From a virus: a DNA stretch of 38,122 nt. Under the pieces are notes generated by a model. The model saw only the letters and a program-made list of their open reading frames with translations. It was not told the DNA's origin and did no database searches. Positions within the stretch are counted from its first letter, which is position 1, and each line of letters opens with the position of its first letter. Below are positions 5,026 to 37,994 of this stretch, one piece after another. Both the position numbers and the translations under genes were made by a program. The stretch spans positions 1 to 38,122 of IMG/VR virus record IMGVR_UViG_3300025815_002358, one strand, 5' to 3'.

Positions 5026-5101
5026 GCCGCTTTAGCTCAGCCGGTAGAGCAACTGATTTGTAATCAGTAGGTCCGCGGTTCGAATCCGTGAAGCGGCACC
5101 A
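5026..5101 (+). tRNA. tRNA-Thr (TGT)
   Basis: Complete cloverleaf of 76 nt. Acceptor GCCGCTT/AAGCGGC, D arm GCTC...GAGC, anticodon loop TTTGTAA with anticodon TGT reading ACA, T loop TTCGAAT, discriminator A and encoded CCA. First of five tRNA genes. Confidence 0.95.
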
Positions 5102-5173
5102 CAAGAACCAATTATGCCAGAATTACCATATACACCAAAGAAGTCAATGGTCTCGCATGTGATTGGTCTTTTT

Positions 5174-5247
5174 GGGGGATTGGTGAAACGGGATCACGCA
5201 TCCATGGCATGGATGAGTCAAGGGTTCGATTCCCTTATCCTCCACCA
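5174..5247 (+). tRNA. tRNA-Ala (GGC)
   Basis: 74 nt with encoded CCA. Acceptor GGGGGAT/ATCCTCC contains the G3:U70 wobble pair, the identity mark of alanine tRNA. Anticodon loop ATGGCAT gives anticodon GGC, reading GCC and GCU. D stem GTGA/TCAC, T arm AAGGG-TTCGATT-CCCTT. Confidence 0.88.
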
Positions 5248-5249
5248 GA

Positions 5250-5324
5250 GGTCCCTTCGTCTATCGGTTAGGACACGTGGTTTTCATCCTCGAAAGAGGG
5301 GTTCGATTCCCCTAGGGACCGCCA
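5250..5324 (+). tRNA. tRNA-Glu (TTC)
   Basis: 75 nt with encoded CCA. Acceptor GGTCCCT/AGGGACC, D arm typical of Glu tRNA (TCGTCTA...TAGGACA), anticodon loop TTTTCAT with anticodon TTC. The anticodon stem CGTGG/CCTCG has a central T-T mismatch, which is unusual. Discriminator G as in bacterial Glu tRNA. Confidence 0.88.
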
Positions 5325-5333
5325 ACAAAATAT

Positions 5334-5410
5334 GTGCCCGTAGTTCAGTTGGATAGAATACGAGTTTCCTAAACTTGGGGTCGCAGGTTCGAATCCTGCC
5401 GGGCACGCCA
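5334..5410 (+). tRNA. tRNA-Arg (CCT)
   Basis: 77 nt with encoded CCA. Acceptor GTGCCCG/CGGGCAC, A20 in the D loop (arginine identity), anticodon loop TTCCTAA with anticodon CCT reading AGG. AGG is common in phage genes such as clpP but rare in many bacteria. Confidence 0.92.
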
Positions 5411-5413
5411 AAA

Positions 5414-5490
5414 GGACCTGTAGCTCAGTTGGATAGAGTGTTGGTTTGCGGAACCAGAGGTCACAGGTTCGAATCCTGTCAGGTCCACCA
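5414..5490 (+). tRNA. tRNA-Arg (GCG)
   Basis: 77 nt with encoded CCA. Acceptor GGACCTG/CAGGTCC, A20 in the D loop, anticodon stem TTGGT/ACCAG and loop TTGCGGA give anticodon GCG, reading CGC and CGU. Most bacteria use an ACG (inosine) tRNA for these codons, so GCG is uncommon. It ends 1 nt before the stop of the next, opposing gene. Confidence 0.85.
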
Positions 5491-11814: not shown

Positions 11815-12753
11815 ATGAAAATCACAAAGAAGAAGACGGCTATAGGTGCGGCGATTATTATCGCACTGATAGTGATCGGTTTCATAATGAAACCCAAGCC
11901 GGCGGAAGCGGCTGACATGGAAGTGTACGGTTCACTTAACTACATGCTTTCCAACAACGAAGATGCCAATGGCGTGTCAACGTCAAAGGCCGAGAACAAT
12001 GGTTCCTCGATAGGAGCGAACTTCTCGCAGAACATCTCAGAGGGCGTTGACGGATTCGCAAAACTGGAAGTGGACATCGACGCGGATGACTCGGGATCGA
12101 ACCCATTTGACTCAAAACTGGCGTTTGCCGGTGTGAACATGGGCACAGCTGGAATCATATCAGCGGGTAGACAGAACTCAGTGTTCAAGGGCGCAGTAAC
12201 ATCTAAGACAGATGTGTTCCCAGAATATGGAAACGGTGCCGCACAGAAACTGTTCAGCAGGGACTCACACACAGTGATCTACTCTAACACTTTTGGTGCG
12301 ATACAGTTAGACAACTTGATCAAAGTGGACGGAACGACCGGTAAGTCAGGTGTTGACGTGTACGAGACAGCGGCCAGCATGGACATCAATGACGCCATGA
12401 ACGTGGGTGTTGCTTACACAGATGACAAGGTCAATGAAGTGACCTACACAGGTGCGGGTTTAACGTATGCTGTGTCGGATGCGACAACAGTGGGTTACAC
12501 GCACACAATCAAGGATGCGGAAACCACCAACCTTACCACAACCGCAAACGAGGTAGTCGCAAGTCACCTAGTGGACGACACGACATACTCGGTAGGTTAC
12601 GGTAAAGTCGAGGACGGTGCCGCGTACACCACAGTTGGAGCCGAGAAGAAGATCGGTGAGAACTTCAGCATGTACGGTGCTTTCGAGATGACTGACCCAG
12701 CGTCTGGCGTAGACACGCAGGATGCCGCGGTTGGAATCAAGTTCACGTTCTAG
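11815..12753 (+). CDS. Gram-negative outer-membrane porin, 312 aa
   Basis: The N-terminus has a lysine-rich n-region (KITKKK), a hydrophobic core (AAIIIALIVIGFI) and a likely signal peptidase site after PAEA (about residue 32). The mature protein opens with MEVYGSLNYMLSN, the first-strand signature of Gram-negative general porins, shows alternating beta-strand patterns with many Asp/Thr/Gly turns, and ends VGIKFTF with a C-terminal phenylalanine, the signal used for assembly into the outer membrane. Length is in the porin range. Strong promoter, structured leader and SD suggest high expression. Possible roles are nutrient entry during infection, receptor masking or replacement of a host porin; all are inference. 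Confidence 0.82.
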   Translation: MKITKKKTAIGAAIIIALIVIGFIMKPKPAEAADMEVYGSLNYMLSNNEDANGVSTSKAENNGSSIGANFSQNISEGVDGFAKLEVDIDADDSGSNPFDSKLAFAGVNMGTAGIISAGRQNSVFKGAVTSKTDVFPEYGNGAAQKLFSRDSHTVIYSNTFGAIQLDNLIKVDGTTGKSGVDVYETAASMDINDAMNVGVAYTDDKVNEVTYTGAGLTYAVSDATTVGYTHTIKDAETTNLTTTANEVVASHLVDDTTYSVGYGKVEDGAAYTTVGAEKKIGENFSMYGAFEMTDPASGVDTQDAAVGIKFTF

Positions 12754-12853: not shown

Positions 12854-13519
12854 TTACGCTTTACGCCTTTTGGTAAAGACCACTTCCTTCTTACGTGATC
12901 TGCCGAATTCGCTGTAGCCTAGGCTGTCTAGGTATGATATGATTTGTTTGCCTTTGGTTCGCTGTGCCTCGTTCTTGTGTTCGATCTCAACGTTCAGCAC
13001 ACAATCGTTTTCGAATAACGTCTGTTCTGCTCCCAGCAGTATATCGTACTCACTGCCTTGTGTGTCTATCTTGATCAGTCCTACATCTTTGTACTCGTAA
13101 TCGTCCAGCCTTTTTATTTGCAACTGACTTTCTTCAACTTGATCCTCAAACACTTGGTCTCTGAAGAAACTGTGTCCACCTGATGTGGTCAAAGATTTGT
13201 AGAAAGTTTTTACCTCTTCCTTTGATCCCAGACCCACTTTGTGCAACACATAGTTCTGTTTGTCTGAAAGGTTAGCCTCCAAGCACTCTATGTTAGAGGT
13301 ATCCGGCTCAAAGACTATCACGTTCTCAAATCTGTCACAGAAGTCTCTGCTCCAGAAACCGATGTTACCACCAATGTCGATTGCTGTCCGGAAGTTTTTG
13401 ACTTGATTCAAAGCGTACTCTCTTTGTAGTCTTTGATATGTGGTTTCGTTATTGATATTCATCCATTCCTCGTAGTGCTTATCATAGTCTGGCAAGAACC
13501 AGCTGTGTACTTTTTTCAT
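12854..13519 (-). CDS. FkbM-family methyltransferase, 221 aa
   Basis: SAM-dependent methyltransferase of the FkbM type. Motif I is AIDIGGNIGFWS (about 46-57), the acidic ribose-binding strand is VIVFEPD (about 68-74), then LGSKEEVKTF, and the family's late motif LIKIDTQGSEYDILLGA (about 138-154). FkbM enzymes O-methylate sugars or polyketide hydroxyls. It directly follows gp41 (1-nt gap), an odd place for a glycan gene, and ends at the convergent terminator. A second FkbM protein is at 30979-31605. Confidence 0.85.
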   Translation of the reverse strand: MKKVHSWFLPDYDKHYEEWMNINNETTYQRLQREYALNQVKNFRTAIDIGGNIGFWSRDFCDRFENVIVFEPDTSNIECLEANLSDKQNYVLHKVGLGSKEEVKTFYKSLTTSGGHSFFRDQVFEDQVEESQLQIKRLDDYEYKDVGLIKIDTQGSEYDILLGAEQTLFENDCVLNVEIEHKNEAQRTKGKQIISYLDSLGYSEFGRSRKKEVVFTKRRKA

Positions 13520-13520
13520 A

Positions 13521-14963
13521 TTATTGTTCTTCGTCGGAATGTATTTCGTTTAAAAGTTGTCTTAGTTTTCCGCCCTCGACGGTGGCTTTAACCTTGACCC
13601 CTAGAGAATCACCTTTTCTAGGATCTAGTATTTCATCCCTAGCATCTGTCGGTGTATCATTTGATGTGACCTTGGAAGTCTGTTTCAATGAATTGTATAT
13701 TTTGTTCTTACCTTGTTGATTATAACTTTGTGAATCATCCTCATCTAGACTTCTGATCCTTAAACTGTCAACATCAAACTCTAGATCCACTTTCTGTCCC
13801 ACACCACTTGAACTCCTAGTCTTCATGAACTGTATTTGGTATCTTCCACGTTCTTTCATGGCTCTTGATGTGAATATACCTATCACGTTGTCTGCAGTCT
13901 GTATCTTTGACAGTCCGCCCGAGATATGACTGTGATCAAACTCGATCTCTTCTACTGACGCTCTATTCAATTGTGATGCTGTTGCTAACACGCACTGTTT
14001 CTCAACAACAAGGTTTCTCAACTCTTCCGAAACATATTTGTCTTTGATGAACAAGTCTGCTGGTGATATCTTCTTGCTCTTTGGCATCATGAGATCCAAG
14101 TAATCTATCAAGATACAATCGATCTTCTTTTTGGTTTTGAGTTCTAGTTCCTTGAGATATGTTCTCACGTCCAACACGTTGCTACCGCTTGGCAGGTATT
14201 TGATCTGTAGTAGTCCGGATTTCTTTGCCATCATCTTGACCTTCATCTCCACGTTGTCTATCTCCGGAAACACCTTACGTGTAGGTATGTTGGTCATCAT
14301 GGCATCCAGCCTCATGGCTGTAAGTTGTTCACTCAACTCGAAAGATATGTAACACACGTTCAGACCAGCAGTGGCCCAGTTCACCGCAAGATTCTGCAAG
14401 AACAAACTTTTACCTGCGCCTGATCCACCTGCAAATATGTTTAGTTCTCCACGGTTGAAACCGCCAAACAGTTTCTTGTCTAGGTTGGCCCAGCCAGTAC
14501 TGATCTGTCCGTTGTTGTCCTTGAGGGCTGTCAGTCTTCCCTTGGGATCCTCGAAATAGTCCGTGCCGAGGTCTCTGGTCAGTCCCACGCTGACTGCTTC
14601 CTTGACCATGTCCTCCACTGGGGCATAATCGCCTTTCTCTAGTAGGTCCGCTGATTGCAGAATCGCGTGTTCCAGTGCCTTGTGTCTTGAAAATGTTTCA
14701 AACTCGTCCAGCAACCAGTTGAAGTGGCTTGGATCCAGATCCTTGGCCGATTTCAGTTTGATGTCGTGCTTGGCGTTGACCTGTTCCACATCCGGCATGA
14801 CCTTGTATTCATCCATGTAGTCCTTGACGAACTTGGCTATGGGTTGCAGTTTACGATCAAACGACTCGGGTTTGAATATGTTCTGTGCCCTAGCGAATGA
14901 TTCCGCATCCGCGAGCAACATCTCTATATAAAGTTTCTGTACATCAAATGTGTATTCAGCCAT
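13521..14963 (-). CDS. 41: replicative DNA helicase, T4 gp41-like, 480 aa
   Basis: DnaB-family ring helicase that unwinds DNA at the phage fork and works with the gp61 primase. The N-terminal helical domain (about 1-140) is followed by the RecA-like ATPase: Walker A GGSGAGKS at 179-186, CYISFELSEQ, Walker B CILIDYLDLM near 285, TASQLNR and the SSGVGQKVDLEFD C-terminal strand. The length matches T4 gp41 (475 aa). It overlaps the primase gene by 8 nt, as expected for a coupled primosome pair. Confidence in the family is high. Confidence 0.92.
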   Translation of the reverse strand: MAEYTFDVQKLYIEMLLADAESFARAQNIFKPESFDRKLQPIAKFVKDYMDEYKVMPDVEQVNAKHDIKLKSAKDLDPSHFNWLLDEFETFSRHKALEHAILQSADLLEKGDYAPVEDMVKEAVSVGLTRDLGTDYFEDPKGRLTALKDNNGQISTGWANLDKKLFGGFNRGELNIFAGGSGAGKSLFLQNLAVNWATAGLNVCYISFELSEQLTAMRLDAMMTNIPTRKVFPEIDNVEMKVKMMAKKSGLLQIKYLPSGSNVLDVRTYLKELELKTKKKIDCILIDYLDLMMPKSKKISPADLFIKDKYVSEELRNLVVEKQCVLATASQLNRASVEEIEFDHSHISGGLSKIQTADNVIGIFTSRAMKERGRYQIQFMKTRSSSGVGQKVDLEFDVDSLRIRSLDEDDSQSYNQQGKNKIYNSLKQTSKVTSNDTPTDARDEILDPRKGDSLGVKVKATVEGGKLRQLLNEIHSDEEQ

Positions 14964-15969
14964 ACATCTTCCTTTTCAAATCTATCTTCAGTTTACTGGA
15001 TTCCGTGGTCTTCAGTATCGATTGTATAGTAAACAGTCTACCATATTTTAACACAGCATCCGCCACGTCGCCAACCGTTTTGTCCCATTCTGGGAACGCA
15101 ACACCCCAACCAAACTCAGTTGCCTGGTCTACTAACTTCTGTCCCGGAGCGTCCCTGTCAGGTACCACTATCACTTGCCTGCCTAACCCATCTATTAGTT
15201 CTTTCTGTGTTTCGTTGACTTCTGATCCTAAAATGCTCACACCGGAAACGGCGATGGCGTCAAACGGTCCTTCAGTGACTAACACGAACTTCCTGGTCCA
15301 GTCCTGTGCGTCCATGTTGAACACGTATCCCGGCCACACGTCTGTGTAGTACTTGACTGCTCTAGATTCCTCAAACACCCTGCCCGTGTATCCGACCACC
15401 TCTCCCCTCCAGTAGAACGGTATCAGCAGTCTTTGATATATGTCCCACGTTTTGTCCGGCGAGTACATGAAGTCATACCAGTCTGCACCTATTCCTCTAC
15501 CTTCGAGATATTTTAGTAAACCGTCGATCTTTTTCCATTGTGGTTCTGTGAGATCATTGGCCACATATTTCTCCAACCATACATCCAGTTTGTGTGTGTT
15601 CTTAGGTAGTGCTTTCTTTTTGAAAGTTACGAATTTCTTCTTTTCATATTTGATGTCACTCTCTTCTTCGCGCATGGCCTCTATGGCCAGTTTCTTTATG
15701 GTGTCTTCGGGTATTCCTATGTAGCTCATGAACTGCCTCATCTTGTAGGTCAACTTGCGTCCGATCACGTAACTGGTCTTGAAGCCACAGTTAAAACAGT
15801 GATAACTGATGGTTCCGTCTGCGCTGGTCATGATGCCGCCGCGTTTCTTCTTGTCCGCTGTCTCTCCGTTGTACACACAACAAGGTGCGTTGAAGCTGAT
15901 CCACCCGCTGGGCGTCTTCTTCTTATTCGCAGGTAGGCTAGTCAGAATTGTGTTCTGGATCAGGTTCAT
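14956..15969 (-). CDS. 61: DNA primase, T4 gp61-like, 337 aa
   Basis: DnaG-related primase that makes RNA primers for lagging-strand synthesis. The N-terminal zinc-binding part has Cys30/31 and Cys58-x-x-Cys61 (CFNCGF). The Toprim core shows VLVTEGPFDAIAVSG (catalytic Glu and the glycine turn) near 230 and VVPDRDAPG (the DxD motif) near 268. The length fits T4 gp61 (342 aa). It is encoded directly upstream of gp41 with an 8-nt overlap. Confidence 0.9.
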   Translation of the reverse strand: MNLIQNTILTSLPANKKKTPSGWISFNAPCCVYNGETADKKKRGGIMTSADGTISYHCFNCGFKTSYVIGRKLTYKMRQFMSYIGIPEDTIKKLAIEAMREEESDIKYEKKKFVTFKKKALPKNTHKLDVWLEKYVANDLTEPQWKKIDGLLKYLEGRGIGADWYDFMYSPDKTWDIYQRLLIPFYWRGEVVGYTGRVFEESRAVKYYTDVWPGYVFNMDAQDWTRKFVLVTEGPFDAIAVSGVSILGSEVNETQKELIDGLGRQVIVVPDRDAPGQKLVDQATEFGWGVAFPEWDKTVGDVADAVLKYGRLFTIQSILKTTESSKLKIDLKRKMYG

Positions 15970-16854: not shown

Positions 16855-17229
16855 ATGAACGAAATTTTTAACACACTGAGGGACAAATTCCCCTTCCTAA
16901 GCCTTATCCGAAAGGGTGATCTTGAATACGTGGGCATAGTTCAGAATGAAGACATCAACGTTATCAGTTTCTATGATTATGGCAGATTGATGTTACCGCA
17001 AGACAAGATGAGATTCCTCAAATGTGGCGAGACCTGGTGGCATGAGTCTAATCGTAAACTACCCATAAACATATTCCTCAAAGGCGAGTTCAGGTATTTC
17101 AGGACCACACTGGTCACTTTGAATTCCAAGGATGTCGAGATAGTGCATGGACCAACGGTTAGATTATCTGATATCTCAAAGAAACGCGTCAAGCGTAGAA
17201 CTATCCAATTAGTAAGAAAACCAGTCTAA
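16855..17229 (+). CDS. hypothetical protein, 124 aa
   Basis: ATG at 16855 in the divergent gap with the virion-like gene; no SD, and a TATAGA box ends 6 nt before the ATG, but with no matching -35. The protein begins MNEIFNTLRDKFPFLSLIRKG and looks like a small mixed alpha/beta domain (EYVGIVQNEDINVISFYDYG) with a basic C-terminus (SKKRVKRRTIQLVRKPV). A charged tail of this kind suggests binding to nucleic acid or to an acidic partner (inference). No family recognised. Its stop overlaps the stop of the opposing 47-aa gene. Confidence 0.65.
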   Translation: MNEIFNTLRDKFPFLSLIRKGDLEYVGIVQNEDINVISFYDYGRLMLPQDKMRFLKCGETWWHESNRKLPINIFLKGEFRYFRTTLVTLNSKDVEIVHGPTVRLSDISKKRVKRRTIQLVRKPV

Positions 17230-17369
17230 ATTTTATCTTTTTCTATCAACTTTTTGAAGTACAATGTCAAAGGACTATTAGGCTGATACGAGTGATACTC
17301 GACACGATCGTTATCAATAATTTTTTTCTTCTTCTTTGGGAGTTTTCGTTTAGGTTTTTGATGTAGCAT
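17226..17369 (-). CDS. small lysine-rich protein, 47 aa
   Basis: ATG at 17369 lies inside the last codons of the DnaE-like gene (20-nt overlap), consistent with coupled translation. The product is strongly basic, with KPKRKLPKKKKKIIDNDR near the N-terminus and a hydrophobic-charged C-terminus (LTLYFKKLIEKDKI). It could bind DNA next to the polymerase-like partner, which is inference. No family recognised; there is only weak SD-like sequence. Confidence 0.5.
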   Translation of the reverse strand: MLHQKPKRKLPKKKKKIIDNDRVEYHSYQPNSPLTLYFKKLIEKDKI

Positions 17370-17940
17370 CAAAACTATATTTAGCTCTTGTGATCAAATT
17401 CATCTGTACCACTATGGCCTGTGCGTAGGCTATCGCGTGTGACTTCTTGAAGAAGTATGATCCGTCTATGGGCCTAGTCCATACCTCCTTCATTATGTCT
17501 TGCCAATCCTTGTACATCAACTGTCTCTTTGCAGGACGTATTATGGCCAACACAGCGGCCAGTTGTTCTATGTTCTTGGGTTCCAGTTTAGACACTATGT
17601 TGAAGTGTCCATTTAGGTGGAACAGGTTCTCCACGGTCTTTGGATCCTTCAGCATGTCCCAATCTGGTTCCTGTATCATCAGTTCCACAAGTTCCTGCTC
17701 TGACTTGACCTCTTTGTATATGTTCACGTTCAACATGTCTATCTTGAAGTATCCCCTGTCCTCGGCCTTCTTGTAATCTAAAGAAGAGTTCCTTGTAACA
17801 GGATGTTCAGGTACTGCATGGAAGTACACTCCGGTCTTGTGTTTTTCTGTCTTGCCGTCTTTGATCATTGATGCCGGCGTGTGTTTGAAAAGTTTCAGCA
17901 CCCCGTCCCGGTCAAAGAAATCTATGTCTACGTCAGGCAT
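17350..17940 (-). CDS. miniature DnaE-like (C-family polymerase) protein, 196 aa
   Basis: Colinear with the palm core of bacterial DNA polymerase III alpha. PDVDIDF at 2-8 matches the PDxDxDF motif (Asp3 and Asp5 for E. coli D401 and D403). HKTGVYFHAVP (34-44) resembles HAGGVVIAP. GYFKIDML (63-70) matches LVKFDFLG, giving Asp68 for D555. LAIIRPAK (131-138) matches LVALFRPG. FFKKSHAIAYA (163-173) matches FNKSHSAAYA. The PHP domain, most of the fingers and the clamp-binding tail are absent; the protein is one fifth of DnaE. The alignment is from memory. It starts by TAATG overlap with the upstream 77-aa gene. An active small polymerase, a primase partner or a polymerase relic with another job are all open. 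Confidence 0.7.
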   Translation of the reverse strand: MPDVDIDFFDRDGVLKLFKHTPASMIKDGKTEKHKTGVYFHAVPEHPVTRNSSLDYKKAEDRGYFKIDMLNVNIYKEVKSEQELVELMIQEPDWDMLKDPKTVENLFHLNGHFNIVSKLEPKNIEQLAAVLAIIRPAKRQLMYKDWQDIMKEVWTRPIDGSYFFKKSHAIAYAQAIVVQMNLITRAKYSFDATSKT

Positions 17941-18173
17941 TAGTGCATACTCCCTTTGCCTTTTTCGGCGTGTTGTATCATCTTGTCACGTGATCCCGGT
18001 TGTAATATTTCCAACACATCCAGCAGTTTTCTGTATCCCTCTGAATCAAGAACATTCCTGTTTATGTCTGGCATAATCACTCTTCCAATCGATCCATCCT
18101 CTTTTATTACCACGGCACAGTCCCCGTCTTCGAAATCCAAGTTATCGGCAATCTCTAGATCTATCTTAGACAA
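17940..18173 (-). CDS. acidic hypothetical protein, TTG start, 77 aa
   Basis: The start is TTG at 18173, supported by AAGGAGG 6 nt upstream and an 8-nt overlap with the preceding gene; the nearest in-frame ATG would cut off a third of the protein. The product is acidic at the N-terminus (LEIADNLDFEDGDCAVVIKE) with a small helical C-terminal half. The stop overlaps the ATG of the DnaE-like gene (TAATG), so the two proteins are made together and may interact. No family recognised. Confidence 0.65.
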   Translation of the reverse strand: MSKIDLEIADNLDFEDGDCAVVIKEDGSIGRVIMPDINRNVLDSEGYRKLLDVLEILQPGSRDKMIQHAEKGKGSMH

Positions 18174-18849
18174 TCTTGGCCTCCTTGGCTGTTTCTTTCA
18201 CCAGCATGAGGTCGGCCGGATAGCTCTTCAACTTGCTAGGCCAGAAACTTGGGTTTATGAATCTCTCTATCATCTGTAGTTGTTCGTCGTTGAATGATTT
18301 TAACATTTTCTTGCCTGCTCCGCAACCTAGCAACAGCCACGGACTGATGGCACCCTGTTGTATGTGTTGAACTGCTCTGTTGGTGTTGACCAACCTGAAA
18401 TAGTCCGACCATTGTGCGTGTTGTTCAGTTGCCCAGTCCATCATGGTGGCGATACTTCTTTGTAGTGCGGCCTCCACGGGTTCCGTCTTCAGTGTCTCGA
18501 TCAGGTACTCCTCGTACAGATCATCCCTGGCCCAGTGATCCAGTTTGATCTTAGATTTCAAAACGAAGTCTATGTACTTGTCTGGATACAATGGATTGAT
18601 GTGCATGATGTACCTACCAAACTTCACGAAAGCGTTGTAGTAAGGACTCTTGACGAAGTCATCATAGGTCTTGTCCTTGGCGTTGTGTTGGTGTATCTTG
18701 TAGAACCTCTGGAACACCATGAACGCGTTGACCACCCACTTCTCGTCTCGCTGTAGGTATCTACGTTTTGGTTCACAAAGGTGCACCTGTAAGGTCCTCT
18801 CCTTAGCGAACTCCTTGCCACAGTAGGTGCATTTATTTGTCGATGCCAT
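18166..18849 (-). CDS. C2H2-type zinc-finger protein, 227 aa
   Basis: The N-terminus carries a finger CTYCGKEFAKERTLQVHLC (Cys7, Cys10, His near 23 and Cys near 25; a CCHC or C2H2 variant) followed by KRRYLQRDEK. The rest is mostly helical and aromatic-rich, without recognised motifs. C2H2-like fingers are rare in bacteria but occur in T4-like marine phages. It probably binds DNA or a protein of the replication complex, since it lies in an operon with replication genes (inference). It overlaps both neighbours. Confidence 0.65.
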   Translation of the reverse strand: MASTNKCTYCGKEFAKERTLQVHLCEPKRRYLQRDEKWVVNAFMVFQRFYKIHQHNAKDKTYDDFVKSPYYNAFVKFGRYIMHINPLYPDKYIDFVLKSKIKLDHWARDDLYEEYLIETLKTEPVEAALQRSIATMMDWATEQHAQWSDYFRLVNTNRAVQHIQQGAISPWLLLGCGAGKKMLKSFNDEQLQMIERFINPSFWPSKLKSYPADLMLVKETAKEAKIV

Positions 18850-19505: not shown

Positions 19506-19992
19506 AGTCCACCTGCTCGCACTGCCTTGATATGTCCTTTACGAAATAAGCACACATGGGCCTACGTCCGTTGGTCAATGGCACTGCCAACATCTGTCCT
19601 GATTTTATTTTTGGGAAGTACCATTTTACTTCAGTATAGATGTCAACCACATCTATGGGCATGAATTCGGGTTTGGTACTTGATAAAGGATTGAATGTGA
19701 ATGCATCAAACCCTCTATCATTTAGACTGGTTATGGGTAACACATGCATCTCTGATTGTCCAGCCTCTCCTATCAGCATCTTCCAGTCCAGTGGCATCTT
19801 GATCTTGTGATCTCCTATCTCCAACACCGCCGCTGGGGCATTGAAACTCTCTAGGAAAATAAGTGGTATGTAGAAGAAGTCTGGATTGGCTGGATCAGAA
19901 TTGTCCAACACGGCGAATCTTAATTTCTCATCCACCCATTCCGGTATCTTTTCCAGTTTGTAGGTCCTGTCATCAAGTGTAAGGATTTTCAT
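19489..19992 (-). CDS. hypothetical protein, 167 aa
   Basis: Overlaps UvsW by 20 nt at its start and the 77-aa gene at its end. The sequence is beta-rich with several proline turns (PLIFLESFNAPAAVLEIGD, MHVLPITSLNDRGFDAF) and ends with a polar tail (QCEQVDYGSVW). No motif is recognised. Because it is co-translated with UvsW it may act with that helicase, which is inference. Confidence 0.6.
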   Translation of the reverse strand: MKILTLDDRTYKLEKIPEWVDEKLRFAVLDNSDPANPDFFYIPLIFLESFNAPAAVLEIGDHKIKMPLDWKMLIGEAGQSEMHVLPITSLNDRGFDAFTFNPLSSTKPEFMPIDVVDIYTEVKWYFPKIKSGQMLAVPLTNGRRPMCAYFVKDISRQCEQVDYGSVW

Positions 19993-21436
19993 AATCTATC
20001 TTTTCTATATTATACGGGTAATTGGCCTCTTTGTAAAACTTTTTCCTTGCCCCCAGGTGTCTTTTCGCAAACTTGCAACTGCTGGTAATGTCCCAAATCT
20101 GCACACTGTCTTTGTCTTCCGCTTTCCTGATTCCACGTCCTATGCTCTGTATCACCCTCACGAACGACTTGCCCGGCTCTATGAGAACAAGATTAAAAAT
20201 CCTAGGAATATTAATGCCAACAGCGGCAACTCCATATGTGGCAATAATAACTTTATTTGTTGCAGTAGATATTTCATCGTATTGTTCCTTTCTATCTGTG
20301 TTTTTGGTTGCTCCAGACACGAACACCGCATCCTTAATTTTCTTCTCTAATATTTCTCCTGCGGATATCCTGTCTACTAGTATCAGTGTGTTCCCTGATG
20401 TGGCTATGCTTTGGATGGTCTGTGCCACCCATGTCATCCGTGTTTGATCTGTTGTGAGCCATTTAAGTTCCTCTCCATAGGTCTTGAACTGTGGATGATC
20501 TTGTGTCTGTAATACATTGACGTGGCAGTTTGCCAAAACTCCTTTGTCTTGTAGTTCACTGGCCTGTATCCTGTTGGCCACTTCACCTATGCTACATTTC
20601 AATCCCATGAATTCGTAGTCCGCCTTTGGTACGGTGCCTGTCAGTCCCCAGCGTATGCCACAGTGTGCGAATGGTCCTGTGAGCAATCTCTTCAACACGT
20701 CCGCCTTGGCCATGTGTACCTCGTCTATGATGATGGTGTTGATGCCCTGTATGGCCTCGAGGAATTCGGTCGTGTGTTCGTCTTTACTTTTCTTCTCCAA
20801 CACATTCAATGATTGCCACGTGGCTATGGTGTTGAACCTACCCAGTTCTTTCCTGTCTCCGTAGTACACACCAACGTCGAGATTACACGCCAAGAAGTCT
20901 TCTTCGGTCTGTGTCACAAGACTTTTGTTAGGCACGATGGTCAGTGTCCTGCCGTAGGGTTCCACCAGTTGACACAACGCCGCGGTTATTATTGTCTTAC
21001 CTGCACCGGTGGCAATCTCCTGTATGCACTGTGGATTCTCTATGAACTTGTTTATGGTCTCCACCTGATAGTCTCTCAACTGTATGGGTTGTCCCGCACA
21101 TGGATGGTTGTCGGGCCATGTGATGTGTGCCAGGTAGTCCTTGTCCACGGCCTTGAATTCATAGTTGTGTTGTTCTCTGTGATCCTCGAAGTCCACATAC
21201 ACTCCACCGTCTTCCAGTATGGGCAGTATTTGGTCTACGAGGTTCAGGTATGTGGTGCCTCCGAGTCCAAAGAAACTGACCTTGCCATCCCACCTACCCA
21301 GTTTAACTGCGGGCAAGTGCCTCGCGTATGGTATCTCGTATTTGAACTTGTTGGATAGTCTCTTCCTCCACTCGAGACTGAGGTTCTCGAACTTCACATT
21401 CACTTCGTCCTTGATTACTAGTTTACAACTGCTCAT
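19973..21436 (-). CDS. uvsW: UvsW-like SF2 DNA/RNA helicase, 487 aa
   Basis: Superfamily 2 helicase that unwinds recombination intermediates and R-loops in T4. The N-terminal domain (about 1-110) is followed by the Q-type motif QLRDYQVETI, Walker A ATGAGKT (about 143-149), the DEVH box in IIIDEVHMAKADVL (about 236-246), GLTGT motif III, and C-terminal motifs IIATYGVAAVGINIP and QSIGRGIRK (motif VI). The length is close to T4 UvsW (about 500 aa). It begins right after the stop of the upstream 444-aa gene. Confidence 0.93.
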   Translation of the reverse strand: MSSCKLVIKDEVNVKFENLSLEWRKRLSNKFKYEIPYARHLPAVKLGRWDGKVSFFGLGGTTYLNLVDQILPILEDGGVYVDFEDHREQHNYEFKAVDKDYLAHITWPDNHPCAGQPIQLRDYQVETINKFIENPQCIQEIATGAGKTIITAALCQLVEPYGRTLTIVPNKSLVTQTEEDFLACNLDVGVYYGDRKELGRFNTIATWQSLNVLEKKSKDEHTTEFLEAIQGINTIIIDEVHMAKADVLKRLLTGPFAHCGIRWGLTGTVPKADYEFMGLKCSIGEVANRIQASELQDKGVLANCHVNVLQTQDHPQFKTYGEELKWLTTDQTRMTWVAQTIQSIATSGNTLILVDRISAGEILEKKIKDAVFVSGATKNTDRKEQYDEISTATNKVIIATYGVAAVGINIPRIFNLVLIEPGKSFVRVIQSIGRGIRKAEDKDSVQIWDITSSCKFAKRHLGARKKFYKEANYPYNIEKIDYENPYT

Positions 21437-30195: not shown

Positions 30196-30982
30196 TAATA
30201 AAAACAGTAAAGCATGGGAAGTGTTCAACGGCGTGGAGAAATCATGGCCTGATCAGATCACAAAGTTAGATAATGCTATAGAAACAGATCCAGTCAGCAA
30301 CAGCATGTTCTGGGGATTCGTTGGCAACAACAGGGAGATGGTCAAGAAGTTAGAAGCCCGGAACCATCAGTACTGGTTCACAGACACTCCATACTTTGGA
30401 AGATTTGACAACAGCAACCTAAAGCCAGACAACCACTACTGGCGCATCTGTAAGAATTCTATACACGTTCCTTACATCAAAGACTGCAAGCCAGATAGAT
30501 TTGAGAAGTTTGGCATCAAGATCAAAGCACCATCGTTCGCCGGCAAGTATGTGTTGGTGTGTCCTAGCTCAGCAGGGATAAACGCATACATAGACCAACC
30601 GAATTGGACAAACGAGACTATTGAACAGATCAAGAGATACACAGACAGACCCATCCGACTTCGACACAAGCCTAGGGGCAGGGGTACATCAGGTCCGAGC
30701 GAGGCCAAGGTACCCCTATCCGAGGATCTAAAGGAGGCCTGGTGCGTTGTTACTAGTTGTAGTATAGTGGCAGTGGAGGCCGTGTGTGAAGGCATACCTG
30801 TGTTTTGTCATGAAAAGAGTTTTGCCACCGATGTTGGCAACACAGAACTGTCTGATATTGAGAATCCCTACTACGGTGGTCCTGAACCCTGGTTGTACAG
30901 TTTGGCACACCAACAGTTCACACCGGAGGAATTTGAGAACGGGACCGCCGTGGAGATACTGATGGACAAGGGGTTGTTATGA
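30170..30982 (+). CDS. KpsC/KpsS-like GT-B protein, paralogue 4, 270 aa
   Basis: The block CVVTSCSIVAVEAVCEGIPVFC is followed by DVGNTELSDIENPYYGGPEP and FTPEEFENGTAV, matching the C-terminus of the three minus-strand paralogues; DVGNTxLxDI is shared exactly with paralogue 1. RLRHKPRGRG stands in place of the RPH loop. YWFTDTPYFG in the N-terminal half is like YMDRPYWG of paralogue 3. ATG at 30170; it overlaps the SGNH gene upstream and the FkbM gene downstream (ATGA). Confidence 0.62.
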   Translation: MLTIYAPFNNKNSKAWEVFNGVEKSWPDQITKLDNAIETDPVSNSMFWGFVGNNREMVKKLEARNHQYWFTDTPYFGRFDNSNLKPDNHYWRICKNSIHVPYIKDCKPDRFEKFGIKIKAPSFAGKYVLVCPSSAGINAYIDQPNWTNETIEQIKRYTDRPIRLRHKPRGRGTSGPSEAKVPLSEDLKEAWCVVTSCSIVAVEAVCEGIPVFCHEKSFATDVGNTELSDIENPYYGGPEPWLYSLAHQQFTPEEFENGTAVEILMDKGLL

Positions 30983-31605
30983 AGATAGAGAAAGTGAATG
31001 GATTCTGGGTGCCCAGTAACGACATACACATCAATGATTGGAAAGCGGGAAAACCTTTCACTCAAAACAAGTGTCTTATAAAGTTTTTAGATTATTGTAA
31101 AAGTCAAAACAAAAAATTTAAAAAAGTGATTGACGTTGGTGCCTGGTGTGGAACATGGGCAAAGTCGCTAGAACCTTTTGCTAAAAAAGTCATTGCTTTC
31201 GAACCTGATAGAATACACTTCGAATGTCTTCAAAAGAATTGTACGATAAATTGTGACTGTAGAAACGAAGCAGTGGGTGCCGTGTTGGGCAAGGTATCTT
31301 TGACGGAGGACAATTTTACACAGGCTAAGCGCGTGGACAGTGATGGTGACATAAGGATGGTGACCATAGACAGTTTTGATTACAAGGATGTTGACCTAAT
31401 CAAGATCGATGTTGAAGGGTATGAATTGGAAGTGCTCAAAGGGGCTAAGAAAACTTTACGAAACACACAATATCTAATGATCGAGTTGAATAACAACACC
31501 AAGAAATATGGTAGCAGTAACACTAAGGTTGAGAAATACATAAAAGATTTGGGATTCAAACTCTTGATTGACCACTGGCCTGACAAAGTTTTCTATCGTG
31601 TTTAA
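30979..31605 (+). CDS. FkbM-family methyltransferase, 208 aa
   Basis: Motif I VIDVGAWCGTWAKS (about 50-63), ribose strand VIAFEPDRIHFECL, then TIDSFDYKDVDLIKIDVEGYELEVLKGA, the family signature for SAM-dependent O-methylation. Similar in length and layout to the FkbM protein at 12854-13519, but only the family core is shared. Located between a glycosyltransferase and a sugar epimerase gene, so methylation of a glycan is likely. Start by ATGA overlap. Confidence 0.85.
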   Translation: MKIEKVNGFWVPSNDIHINDWKAGKPFTQNKCLIKFLDYCKSQNKKFKKVIDVGAWCGTWAKSLEPFAKKVIAFEPDRIHFECLQKNCTINCDCRNEAVGAVLGKVSLTEDNFTQAKRVDSDGDIRMVTIDSFDYKDVDLIKIDVEGYELEVLKGAKKTLRNTQYLMIELNNNTKKYGSSNTKVEKYIKDLGFKLLIDHWPDKVFYRV

Positions 31606-31624: not shown

Positions 31625-32629
31625 ATGAAAATCTTTATAACAGGAGTGGCAGGATTCTTAGGATCGCATTTGGCAGATCTGATGTTGTCACAAGGACACA
31701 GCGTTGCTGGTAATGACAACATGATAGGTGGTTACACAGACAACGTGCCACAGGATGTGGAGTTCCATCAAGTGGACTGCTGTGATTTAGAAAATCTCAC
31801 AAAAGCCATGGAAGGTTGCGACATCGTCTATCACACGGCCGCTACGGCTTACGAAGGACTATCTGTATTTTCTCCTGTGCTTGTAACAAGGAATATTTTT
31901 GAAGCATCAGTGACAACCATCACAGCGGCTATTAGGAATAAGGTCAAACGTATCGTCTACTGTTCAAGCATGGCGAGATATGGACATCATGATGAAATTC
32001 CCTACAAGGAAACTTACGAATGTAGACCGCAGGATCCATACGGTATAGCCAAAAAAGCCGGAGAAGATGTGCTGAGGAATCTATGTGAAACACACGGTAT
32101 AGAGTATGTCATAGCCGTGCCACACAACATTGTCGGACCTAGACAAAAATACGACGACCCGTTTAGGAATGTCATGTCCATAATGTTGAACAGGATGTTA
32201 CAGGGAAAGCAACCTATTGTGTATGGAGATGGTGAACAGAAACGTTGCTTTAGTTATATAGACGATTGTCTGTATTGTCTCAACGCCCTCGCATTCCAAA
32301 ACAATGTGGTGGGAGAGGTTATAAACATAGGACCAGACGAAGAACCAGTGACTATCAATGAACTAGCCGAAGCCTGTGCTAACGAAACAGGTGTTAATTT
32401 AGATCCAATACACCACAAAGATAGACCGAAAGAAGTGAAACTAGCAACCTGTTCGTCAGACAAGGCCAGGAAATTATTGGGATATAAGACCTCCACCAAC
32501 ATGAGGCAGGCGGTAAAGAAGACTGCCGAATACATCAGGACACGCGGTACTAAAAAATTTCAATATCACTTGCCTTTGGAAATCATAAACGAGCACACCC
32601 CTGAAACCTGGAAGAACAAATTGATATGA
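31625..32629 (+). CDS. NAD-dependent sugar epimerase/dehydratase, 334 aa
   Basis: Extended SDR. GVAGFLGSH (Gly7, Gly10, Gly13) is the NAD loop, VYHTAATAYEG the nucleotide-side strand, YCSSMARYG the catalytic Ser/Thr region and DPYGIAKKAGED the YxxxK motif (about Tyr139/Lys143); later motifs are VPHNIVGPRQ and GDGEQKRCFSYIDDC. The layout is as in UDP-glucose 4-epimerase (GalE) and UDP-sugar dehydratases. It would supply a modified nucleotide sugar to the neighbouring transferases. Specificity is unknown. Confidence 0.88.
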   Translation: MKIFITGVAGFLGSHLADLMLSQGHSVAGNDNMIGGYTDNVPQDVEFHQVDCCDLENLTKAMEGCDIVYHTAATAYEGLSVFSPVLVTRNIFEASVTTITAAIRNKVKRIVYCSSMARYGHHDEIPYKETYECRPQDPYGIAKKAGEDVLRNLCETHGIEYVIAVPHNIVGPRQKYDDPFRNVMSIMLNRMLQGKQPIVYGDGEQKRCFSYIDDCLYCLNALAFQNNVVGEVINIGPDEEPVTINELAEACANETGVNLDPIHHKDRPKEVKLATCSSDKARKLLGYKTSTNMRQAVKKTAEYIRTRGTKKFQYHLPLEIINEHTPETWKNKLI

Positions 32630-33336
32630 TATCATTCTGTTGTCCTTCTCGAGGAAGGCCAGAGTTGGCCAAACGTCTCATAGACACAGCCATGTCTAAT
32701 CAACAGCACAATACTGAATTTCTTTTCTATCTTAATGACGACGATGCTACATTAGAACAATACAAAGACATGCTAGACGAAAAGCATTACGTGGTAGGTC
32801 CGAATCAATCTACTTGCTACAGTTGGAATATCATGTGTGATCAGGCCAAAAACGACATAGTGATGCTAATGGGGGATGATGTGCAAGTTAATACCAAACA
32901 CTGGGATCAACTTATCGTAGAACAGTTTGAAAAATACAAAGATAGAATCCTAATGGTGGTGCCCACCGACGGAAGGAACAAAGGATCAAAAAATTTTGGA
33001 AGTGAGATCAAACTGTGGCCTGACAAACCTCTGCCGGCCGCACATTTTGCCGTGCATAAAAATTGGATAAAAACTTTAGGGTATCTCGCTCCTGTCTACT
33101 TTTGGCACTGGCATGTTGACTCCTACACACAAAAGGTTGCTAGGAAACTGAATAGGTGCCTATATCTTCCCACTGTAGAGTTCAAAGCAAAAAAAATAAT
33201 GAATGATAATGCCGGCAAGCAAATTAGAAAAAATTTAAATATTGCAGAAAGAGATCAATACGTATGGCAAAAGGTTAGGAATAGACATTTAGAAGCAGAC
33301 GTGCAGGCATTGAAATCATTTATTGAATCTTTCTAA
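32626..33336 (+). CDS. GT-A glycosyltransferase, 236 aa
   Basis: The N-terminus MISFCCPSRGRPELAKRLID is a GT2-type nucleotide-binding start. FLFYLNDDDATLEQY and VMLMGDDVQVNTKHW carry the D-x-D strand, and FWHWHVDSYTQKV is a later acidic region. The protein is a compact inverting- or retaining-type GT-A domain. ATG overlaps the epimerase stop. It ends by 21-nt overlap with the opposing 144-aa gene. Acceptor unknown. Confidence 0.68.
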   Translation: MISFCCPSRGRPELAKRLIDTAMSNQQHNTEFLFYLNDDDATLEQYKDMLDEKHYVVGPNQSTCYSWNIMCDQAKNDIVMLMGDDVQVNTKHWDQLIVEQFEKYKDRILMVVPTDGRNKGSKNFGSEIKLWPDKPLPAAHFAVHKNWIKTLGYLAPVYFWHWHVDSYTQKVARKLNRCLYLPTVEFKAKKIMNDNAGKQIRKNLNIAERDQYVWQKVRNRHLEADVQALKSFIESF

Positions 33337-35495: not shown

Positions 35496-35740
35496 TAGTC
35501 CTCGCTGTAGCCGTCGTCGTATGACTCGTCTAGGTCTTCCTCTTCCTCGAACACCGTGTTGATCGCTTCCTCTAATTTGGGATCAAACTCACCAGATGCT
35601 TTTATTTCGTCGTGCTCGATGCCTATGTCGTCGAGACTCTTAATGAAATCGATTGCCGCGTCTAGTTTAGACCTTTCTGGTACGTAGTGAGATATGGAGT
35701 TCCATAAACGCTCGATGTCTTCGTGTGTGAAATCAATCAT
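35495..35740 (-). CDS. acidic hypothetical protein, 81 aa
   Basis: Starts and ends by TAATG overlaps with uvsX and the 153-aa gene. The N-terminus is helical (FTHEDIERLWNSISHYVPERSKLDAAIDF), and the C-terminus is an acidic tail (EEEEDLDESYDDGYSED) of DNA-mimic or protein-binding type. No family recognised. Its position directly after uvsX makes a role in regulating UvsX or gp32 plausible (inference). Confidence 0.65.
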   Translation of the reverse strand: MIDFTHEDIERLWNSISHYVPERSKLDAAIDFIKSLDDIGIEHDEIKASGEFDPKLEEAINTVFEEEEDLDESYDDGYSED

Positions 35741-36843
35741 TATTCTGCGTCGTCCTCTTCTATAATTTCTGTTTTCTTTGCTTTTGACTTTGGTGCTTCT
35801 TCCACACTTTCCACTTTCGCTTCAGTGCTTTCTTTGAAGTTCGCCATTATCATATCTAATTTATCACCTGTCCATGCTTTCCTGAAGTCTATGTGTTCTT
35901 TGCCCTGTGGGTCAACATATTTCAGCCTGTTTCCTGTCTGCACCAGTATTCCCTTCTTCTCGAATAGGTCCACCAGTCCGCTGTATGGATCCATGCCTGT
36001 GTCATAAGGGATCTTGACCTGTACACCCTCGAATGGTTTGGCATATCTGGTCTTCATGACCTTACAAGCCGCTCGGATACCCCTCACTTCGGATATCTTG
36101 TTGCCTTTCTCGTCTTCTTTTAATTTTAATTTCTTCATCGCTATCACGATAGAACTCGCGTAGATGAAACCCTGACCACCTGATATCTTGTCATCTGGAT
36201 CAAACATGTCCTGTGATGCGTAAGTGTGGTTAGTTGCTATCAGTCCCACGTTCCAACTTCCAAACATGTTCACACAGTTCCTAACCAGTGCTGTCAGTGC
36301 CTTGGGTTTCCTACCAAGATCGCCCTTCATGTCTCCCGCTTCAAATTGATTTACATCAGTTGGTGTCAGCATCATGCCCAAACTGTCTATCACGAAAAGA
36401 ACTTTTGGAGCACCTTCTTTATTATCAGCATGTTGTTCCTTGTAGCCTTTCATGAACTCCGATATGGTCTTTGCCACGTCGTCTACCATTGACATGCTTA
36501 ACTTCAGGAGTTTTTCTTCTGACGTGTCAACACCTAAGGCCTGTAGCCATGTCTCGTCAAGTGCGTTCTCTGTGTCTATCAAGATCACGAAGATTCCTTG
36601 TGCCTGAGCGTTCTTGATTATGTTTCCTGATGCTATGTATGATTTACCTGCCCCTGATTCTCCTGCGAGCACAGTCACTTTACCCAACGGAATTCCTTTG
36701 TTGAAATCACTGGTCATCAAATAGTTAAGAGCGTAGTTGCCTGTAGATATCCAGTCTGTTGGATCACTGAATCCTATTCCCAACCCTTGTATTGATTTTG
36801 TTATACTTTTCCTAAATTTTGTTGCGTCAAACACTTTTGTCAT
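35740..36843 (-). CDS. uvsX: UvsX, RecA-like recombinase, 367 aa
   Basis: Strand-exchange ATPase for recombination-dependent replication. Walker A GESGAGKS (61-68), Walker B VLFVIDSLG (about 143-151), MKTRYAKPFEG and a C-terminal acidic tail (EEAPKSKAKKTEIIEEDDAE) of the kind that controls RecA loading. The length is near T4 UvsX (about 390 aa). First of a coupled string uvsX, 81 aa, 153 aa, HAD, GT8, 144 aa. No good SD is seen. Confidence 0.93.
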   Translation of the reverse strand: MTKVFDATKFRKSITKSIQGLGIGFSDPTDWISTGNYALNYLMTSDFNKGIPLGKVTVLAGESGAGKSYIASGNIIKNAQAQGIFVILIDTENALDETWLQALGVDTSEEKLLKLSMSMVDDVAKTISEFMKGYKEQHADNKEGAPKVLFVIDSLGMMLTPTDVNQFEAGDMKGDLGRKPKALTALVRNCVNMFGSWNVGLIATNHTYASQDMFDPDDKISGGQGFIYASSIVIAMKKLKLKEDEKGNKISEVRGIRAACKVMKTRYAKPFEGVQVKIPYDTGMDPYSGLVDLFEKKGILVQTGNRLKYVDPQGKEHIDFRKAWTGDKLDMIMANFKESTEAKVESVEEAPKSKAKKTEIIEEDDAE

Positions 36844-37010: not shown

Positions 37011-37994
37011 TTATTTTGCTTGTCTTGATCTGATCAGTTTCAGTATGTCTTCTGCCCTCTTGGCACTGTCACCCGCGGGAGCCGCCGTTGCTGGGGCCGC
37101 CTCTGGTTGTGGTGCTGGTGCTGGTTGACTCACTGCTGGAGCAGGTTCAGATGCAGTTGCCGTTGTGGTCGCTGGTGCTTCCGCAACAGGTGTCTGTGGT
37201 TTATTGTAAGCCACGCCCGCTGGTCTGAAGTACTGTCCGTACTGTTCGAGATCATAAGCCTCACCTTCAACAGATTTCTCAAACAATTCCTTGATTATTT
37301 TTACCTCTGCCTCGGTTGGCTCTTTTGGTCTGAAGTCACCCAGGTTGTGTAACCCGTGTGTGTCGATCGCGGCTCTCTCGGCCTCGTCCAACGGTCTTTC
37401 TCTTCTTGACCATTTTGATGTTGAGTAATCAGCGTAACCACCTTTTGTGGTTTTGGTGATCCTGAAGTCCACGCCCTTCAAGTAGTCAGTTGGCATTTCT
37501 TCCATCTCTGGATCCATCAGTGCCCCTCTGATTATGTTGAAGATCTGAGGTCCGATGATGAATCTTCTGATCGGATTCTCAGGTGTCGTGTCTTCCGCTA
37601 ACGGATTCGTTGTGACAAATCCCTGGAAGATGTAACTTTTCTTTTTCCAGTATTTTCTGCCCATGTCTTCCATGCTCTTGTCTTTGAACCACGGTCTCAC
37701 TTCTGTGAGTACTGGACAAGTCTTCCCATACATCTCCATGCATGGTACTTGCACTGTCACTGGTCTAGAGTCAGTCTGACCTTTGATGCCCGCGAACGGT
37801 AACTTGATCATGTTCCTCTCGGTCCAGAAGAATGTGTTGGTCTCGTCCTTGTCTGGTAGGAATCTGACCACTGCTTCTGATCCTTCTGCTATGTTCCAGT
37901 GTGGGTAGATGGCGTTGTCTCCGCCTGTGTTGGAAGTGGAGCGATTCACTTCTTGAGATTTCAACTTCGCTCTTATTTCAGCCAATGATGCCAT
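37011..37994 (-). CDS. 32: gp32, single-stranded DNA-binding protein, 327 aa
   Basis: T4 gp32-type protein that coats ssDNA at forks and recombination sites. The N-terminal LAEIRAKLKSQ resembles the basic cooperativity region. The OB core includes FFWTERNMIKLPF, VQVPCMEMYGKTCPVL and RKYWKKKSYIFQGFVTTNP. Only two cysteines (Cys85, Cys93) remain in the zinc region, against His plus three Cys in T4 gp32. The C-terminus is a Pro/Ala/Gln/Thr-rich linker followed by SAKRAEDILKLIRSRQAK, which is basic rather than acidic. Good SD (GGAGG). The leader may carry structured sequence at 38047-38091. Confidence 0.88.
   Translation of the reverse strand: MASLAEIRAKLKSQEVNRSTSNTGGDNAIYPHWNIAEGSEAVVRFLPDKDETNTFFWTERNMIKLPFAGIKGQTDSRPVTVQVPCMEMYGKTCPVLTEVRPWFKDKSMEDMGRKYWKKKSYIFQGFVTTNPLAEDTTPENPIRRFIIGPQIFNIIRGALMDPEMEEMPTDYLKGVDFRITKTTKGGYADYSTSKWSRRERPLDEAERAAIDTHGLHNLGDFRPKEPTEAEVKIIKELFEKSVEGEAYDLEQYGQYFRPAGVAYNKPQTPVAEAPATTTATASEPAPAVSQPAPAPQPEAAPATAAPAGDSAKRAEDILKLIRSRQAK

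Follow-up and report, generated by a model that had tools for sequence, protein, structure and literature searches.

The window, i.e., the whole stretch of DNA that was analysed, comprises the 38,122 nucleotides of IMG/VR record IMGVR_UViG_3300025815_002358. On its minus strand, an open reading frame that starts with ATG runs from 17940 to 17350 and encodes a protein of 196 aa, while the plus strand across the same interval contains many stops. The protein matches PHROG 11778 (E 2.5e-65, residues 3-187), shares 35-53% identity with copies in cultured phages, and homologs of it were found in 63 phage records as well as in at least 570 viral contigs; given this match, these counts and the low dN/dS reported below, the ORF is far above chance. 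By homology, it belongs to the split minimal DNA polymerase III (Pol III) alpha as its C-terminal unit, here called the C-half, the N-terminal unit being the N-half. The genes relevant to its setting are the following:

13521..14963, minus strand: gp41-like DnaB replicative helicase
14956..15969, minus strand: gp61-like DNA primase
16855..17229, plus strand: opposite-strand neighbour of 124 aa, PHROG 11637
17350..17940, minus strand: C-half of the split minimal DNA Pol III alpha, 196 aa, PHROG 11778 (C-terminal, metal- and sugar-binding)
17940..18173, minus strand: ORF of 77 aa directly upstream, abutting the C-half start codon, with no family match
18166..18849, minus strand: conserved neighbour of 227 aa, PHROG 11058, whose N-terminus weakly matches a C2H2-like zinc finger in Pfam
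19973..21436, minus strand: UvsW-like helicase
35740..36843, minus strand: UvsX-like recombinase
37011..37994, minus strand: gp32-like single-strand DNA-binding protein

The replication operon mentioned in the initial annotation is a T4-type cluster, with genes for gp32-like SSB, UvsX, UvsW, gp61-like primase and gp41-like helicase in the window. A recurring gene order was observed around the C-half, namely uvsW, small ORFs, C-half, the opposite-strand gene, a gene annotated as structural, gp61 primase and gp41 helicase, which was seen in Agrobacterium and Sinorhizobium phages, RaK2, 121Q, Paride, Vibrio 2.275.O, SCTP-2 and the window; variants of this neighbourhood occur in XacN1, RAS14 and Slicko01. 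The position and orientation of the PHROG 11637 gene, which runs against the direction of its neighbours, recur in most relatives, including distant jumbo phages. Elsewhere in the window, a 312-aa ORF on the opposite strand (11815-12753, plus; Pfam Porin_1, E 1.6e-8), located downstream of the gp41-methyltransferase genes, may encode a phage-borne Gram-negative-type porin. Two PHROG 8156 methyltransferase genes are found at 12854-13519 (minus) and 30979-31605 (plus), the latter adjoining sugar-epimerase and glycosyltransferase genes (31625-33336), and five tRNA genes (Thr, Ala, Glu, Arg-cct and Arg-gcg) lie at 5026-5490 (plus).

The 196-aa protein contains the motifs PDVDIDF, HKTGV, FKID, AIIRPAK and KKSHAIAYA, corresponding to every element initially listed (PDxDxDF, HxxGV, FKxD, AIxRPAK and KKSHAxAYA). 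In the alignment to E. coli DnaE, with the reference sequence taken from the MG1655 record, the residues correctly numbered from the outset as Asp3, Asp5 and Asp68 align with D401, D403 and D555, which are catalytic throughout the C-family, and a further aspartate falls on the D405 position, which is conserved in DnaE types and is Asn in PolC (PMC3919608). His168 aligns with H760, a proposed steric gate against ribonucleotides in E. coli DnaE (PMC8485763). The corresponding codons, assigned by alignment, are:

17932..17934, minus strand: Asp3, equivalent to E. coli DnaE D401, catalytic (triad, PMC3919608)
17926..17928, minus strand: Asp5, equivalent to D403, catalytic (triad, PMC3919608)
17920..17922, minus strand: Asp7, equivalent to D405, DnaE-type (PMC3919608)
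17743..17745, minus strand: invariant Lys66 of FKxD (KFD in DnaE)
17737..17739, minus strand: Asp68, equivalent to D555, third catalytic Asp (PMC3919608)
17437..17439, minus strand: invariant His168 of KKSHA, equivalent to H760, proposed steric gate (PMC8485763)

Residues D68, H34, K66, W94, K138 and H168 show no variation across 224 aligned C-half sequences, D3, D5 and D7 being part of the pattern by which these 224 were selected. The 11 loci excluded by this pattern were read by eye, and the aspartates are kept in all those reaching the N-terminus, L216 being cut by the contig end. Altogether, every C-half read that is not truncated (~230) has its catalytic residues, and no catalytically dead variant was found among them. 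The median dN/dS of the C-half within the window clade is 0.047, a value indicative of strong purifying selection. One copy (L183:5001-5543) displays a single in-frame stop past the strand of the third catalytic Asp (LLNVNLY*GIK), which could reflect a sequencing error or a broken copy.

Sequence comparison by itself would tie the 196-aa protein to Pol III alpha weakly: Pfam PF17657 gave an E-value of 0.005, short of the cut-off, and the best match in a PDB profile search using the C-half family profile had an E-value of 0.01. This family profile was required, as a solved-structure search with a single C-half sequence returned chance matches to triosephosphate isomerase only. The HMM-HMM comparison with DnaE suggested in the initial annotation did yield a match (hhalign against the E. 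coli DnaE sequence, E 2.5e-4), albeit a weak one. A scan of GTDB genomes with peptide patterns of the window protein revealed no cellular copy of the mini-protein; the one weak match, on a MAG contig, is to the palm region of a DnaE-like ORF of greater length. As judged from the predicted fold, it is the structural match that settles the kinship. The AlphaFold2 model of the C-half, built with 82 relatives as input, reached a pLDDT of 93.3, and in VIA-align each of its top 15 rows was a Pol III alpha or PolC chain (Z 6.2-9.6 over 183-194 aligned residues), the best having Z 9.6 over 193 residues at 4.0 A and the row after these 15 having Z 3.3. The model covers E. coli DnaE from 399/400 to 816, beginning with C-half residue 1, and its palm strands comprise residues 4-8, which hold D5 with D3 just ahead, and 67-71, which hold D68. 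The structure prediction thus gave the palm and fingers of Pol III alpha, not a fold unlike the Pol-beta-type palm, and together with the alignment it agrees with the original description of a compact C-family (DnaE-type) core that has kept its catalytic residues.

Relative to DnaE, the chain extends from E. coli residue 399 to about 816 and lacks ~220 residues in between, corresponding to the stretch from the DxD strand to the HxxGV strand and to the middle of the fingers. In DnaE structures, the thumb sits between these two strands. Alignment and length indicate that the C-half has no thumb, PHP domain, HhH, clamp-binding or OB regions. In the alignment, the GRGS triphosphate-binding palm segment, found just ahead of E. 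coli 399, is also absent from the 196 aa, and thus this chain has no triphosphate grip.

This segment was found in a second phage gene. A PF07733 scan of 11 phage records gave one above-cut-off match in each of the 11, an ORF of ~170-200 aa holding the GRGS part only. This N-half (~175 aa, PHROG 11127, PF07733) matches E. coli DnaE by hhalign with an E-value of 1.4e-7. In phage Paride its C-terminus reads ...GVGRGSSVASYVLFLIGVHKVDSLKYNLDIKEFLK and matches E. coli DnaE up to residue 393, where it stops. Likewise, the AlphaFold2 model of a marine N-half (pLDDT 86) covers E. coli DnaE 279-393 up to its last residue, 173, with Z 7.7-12.4 against the Pol III alpha and PolC chains listed. Since the N-half stops at E. 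coli 393 and the C-half starts at 399, the halves cover the DnaE palm end to end, separated by a seam of ~5 residues. No PHP or thumb match was obtained in the N-half; with the thumb and most of the fingers missing from both halves, templated synthesis is uncertain. ORF lengths range from 184 to 216 aa for the C-half (n=223) and from 169 to 188 aa for the N-half (n=149), and no fused ORF was found in either set. The motif GRGSS is invariant in the 149 N-half sequences, GRGS itself being part of the selection filter.

Both halves co-occur. All 11 phages scanned in full carry an N-half and a C-half, always as separate genes, together with a family-B polymerase (gp43). In the phage collection, the C-half matches 63 records, and so does the RaK2 N-half by tblastn; among the matches listed, 60 N-half records correspond to C-half carriers, 3 of them paired by host counts. 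The remaining C-half records are Slicko01, whose N-half was found by the PF07733 scan, its near twin Slickus01, and a 109-kb Klebsiella phage record, far smaller than its relatives. Outside the window clade, 13 of 17 large viral contigs, which may be fragments, carry an N-half. A family-B polymerase is also found in 5 large contigs. A scan with the Phosso sequence as the N-half query gave no match.

These results bear on the main reading of the initial annotation, according to which the 196-aa protein would be active alone as a mini polymerase. The invariance of the Asp triad, the FKxD lysine and the steric-gate histidine is consistent with such activity, as is the high-confidence fold predicted for the single chain; however, the protein has neither a GRGS element nor a thumb, a separate GRGS gene accompanies it in all 11 relatives checked in full, and the record sets of both genes are nearly identical. 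We therefore regard self-sufficiency as extremely unlikely. With the GRGS part being supplied by a second phage gene, the C-half probably corresponds to one subunit of a split enzyme.

The same body of evidence was considered for a catalytically silent derivative, which would have a structural role in the replisome, act as a regulator or serve as a decoy against host Pol III. That these phages already own a family-B polymerase, and that the protein has none of the DnaE parts known to bind the clamp and the proofreader, would fit such a role. Conversely, no full-length member read has lost a catalytic aspartate, the estimated purifying selection is strong (dN/dS ~0.05), the GRGS motif of the partner is invariant in its 149 sequences, and a decoy would need neither metal ligands nor a separately encoded triphosphate site, all of which make a silent protein very unlikely.

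Regarding its genomic location, in the annotated genomes examined the N-half has GroES close by, together with the gp44 clamp loader or, in its place, an AAA ATPase; a location in the late structural module was considered and rejected, as the gene lies close to the clamp loader in these genomes. With the C-half between uvsW and gp61/gp41 and the N-half by the clamp loader, both halves lie among replication genes. In Slicko01 (141 kb; L089:5598-8579 and L250), both lie within ~11 kb, separated by the clamp loader (RFC small subunit), and its N-half is the most divergent among the annotated copies.

In the window's own clade, the partner was not found in physical linkage with the C-half because the available contigs are fragments. 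Profile searches found no N-half in the window, itself a 38-kb fragment, nor in ~40 other window-clade contigs of up to 91 kb, all of them fragments, and the sole N-half profile matches in the latter fall within an intact DnaE of 563 aa, encoded by a variable gene of its own. Similarly, no family-B polymerase was found in the window or in its 61-91 kb relatives, which are fragments. A likely partner cluster displays the order N-half, PHROG 14844, GroES, UvdE endonuclease and gp44; 30 contigs carrying it contain no C-half, and comparing the synteny of the likely N-half contigs with that of the 61-91 kb clade contigs yielded no usable overlap. This N-half cluster (74 loci) shares 22 of 65 samples with window-clade C-halves, compared with 5 of 47 for a control N-half cluster (Fisher p 0.007), a test that is based on the matches listed, with items that are not independent of each other. 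Such sample sharing is only suggestive of this cluster as the window-clade partner. We infer that the window's own phage encodes an N-half.

The 563-aa gene is a PHP-less DnaE-like polymerase (L276:1459-3147; PF07733 8e-43 and PF17657 1.6e-14). Among the window's close relatives, about a dozen have it downstream of their gp41 helicase gene, these being L276, L067:14124-15812, L037, L077, L010, L027 and L219, and, with partial copies, L078, L024, L151, L013 and L229; just its last ~23-25 codons are left in L018, L019 and L011, and the window is without the gene. As a replacement for the N-half it was rejected, being missing from many clade members, including the window.

Considering the predicted fold, the conserved residues, the complementary coverage of the DnaE palm, the co-occurrence and the replication-gene locations, we regard it as probable that the 196-aa protein is the C-terminal one of two subunits in a split DnaE-type polymerase core without a thumb, sharing its active site with the N-half and having a limited synthesis job. 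We infer the physical assembly of the halves, their catalysis and the task of the enzyme as follows. The C-half would bring the three aspartates that bind metal, the lysine of FKxD and the finger helix bearing the steric-gate histidine, and the N-half the triphosphate-binding GRGS part of the palm. Upon association, the two chains, of ~370 residues in all, would form one shared active site. The predicted pair would work beside the family-B polymerase, clamp loader, primase and helicase of the phage, performing limited synthesis such as gap filling, repair or primer extension.

A different activity may be considered for the same pair, namely that of a non-templated nucleotidyltransferase, e.g., a terminal transferase, an end-modifying one or an enzyme filling gaps of one nucleotide. 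The dNTP site would be complete across the two chains while the thumb and most template-contacting fingers are absent, and the marine likely partner cluster places the N-half by the UvdE repair endonuclease and the clamp loader. Nonetheless, the steric-gate helix (KSH, H760) is kept, which fits template-guided selection of dNTPs, and in DnaE this KSH helix with H760 contacts the incoming deoxyribose (PMC8485763); we thus consider a non-templated transferase unlikely. As for the broader formulation of the polymerase reading, i.e., a two-chain, single-site DNA polymerase with the triphosphate grip on one chain and the metals and sugar gate on the other, without a thumb, working in large T4-like phages throughout the ocean with a family-B replicase at its side, we judge its chances to be about even. 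If true, this two-chain enzyme would be among the smallest C-family enzymes, and clade members with the intact 563-aa DnaE core would hold two kinds of C-family enzyme. Should the pair be active, the nucleotide-joining site of the bacterial replicase would be reducible to ~370 residues, split exactly at the boundary between triphosphate and metal binding, and the proposal that the pieces resemble an ancestral Pol III (PMC7824862) would become directly testable with two small proteins. The question is also raised as to why T4-like phages with a family-B replicase retain a second, very different polymerase core under strong selection.

Compared with the DnaE of E. coli and T. aquaticus, the C-half shares the palm strands with D401/D403/D555, D405, the FKxD lysine, the RP motif helix and the KSH steric-gate helix, with a fold match of Z 9.0-9.6. 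It differs in its length (196 versus 1160 residues) and in being without PHP, a GRGS palm part on the same chain, thumb, complete fingers, and HhH, clamp-binding, OB and C-terminal domains. The 563-aa DnaE-like polymerase of related marine phages is likewise a C-family core without PHP, found in the same clade a few kb from the C-half; in contrast, it holds the GRGS-like, DxD and finger motifs in one chain and is a variable gene.

The closest known system is that of the group 2.2 jumbo phages, which carry a family-B polymerase together with a phage-specific minimal Pol III alpha split in two proteins (Iyer et al. 2021, PMC7824862); hence the C-family piece beside a B-family polymerase, initially regarded as unexpected, belongs to a pairing already described. 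The two units, an N-terminal NTP-binding one and a C-terminal Mg2+/template-binding one, are encoded at distant loci and probably reconstitute one enzyme (PMC7824862). The N part had been recorded earlier as a truncated alpha subunit in a genome paper (PMC5259590), and the Atu_ph07 genome paper reported Pol III alpha and epsilon subunits (PMC6102473); a literature search on the split minimal Pol III found no biochemical study. The window protein resembles the C-terminal unit of that system in its family (PHROG 11778, E 2.5e-65) and neighbourhood. There, the N unit is encoded apart with a family-B polymerase alongside, whereas the window phage is known from an uncultured marine fragment, with a putative partner gene, and members also occur in the 141-kb Slicko01, under jumbo size. 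As the idea was published in 2021, the value of the present analysis lies in a sharper anatomy and in the breadth of the family rather than in discovery: it places the seam exactly, shows that the steric gate is retained, finds no dead variants and adds hundreds of marine members.
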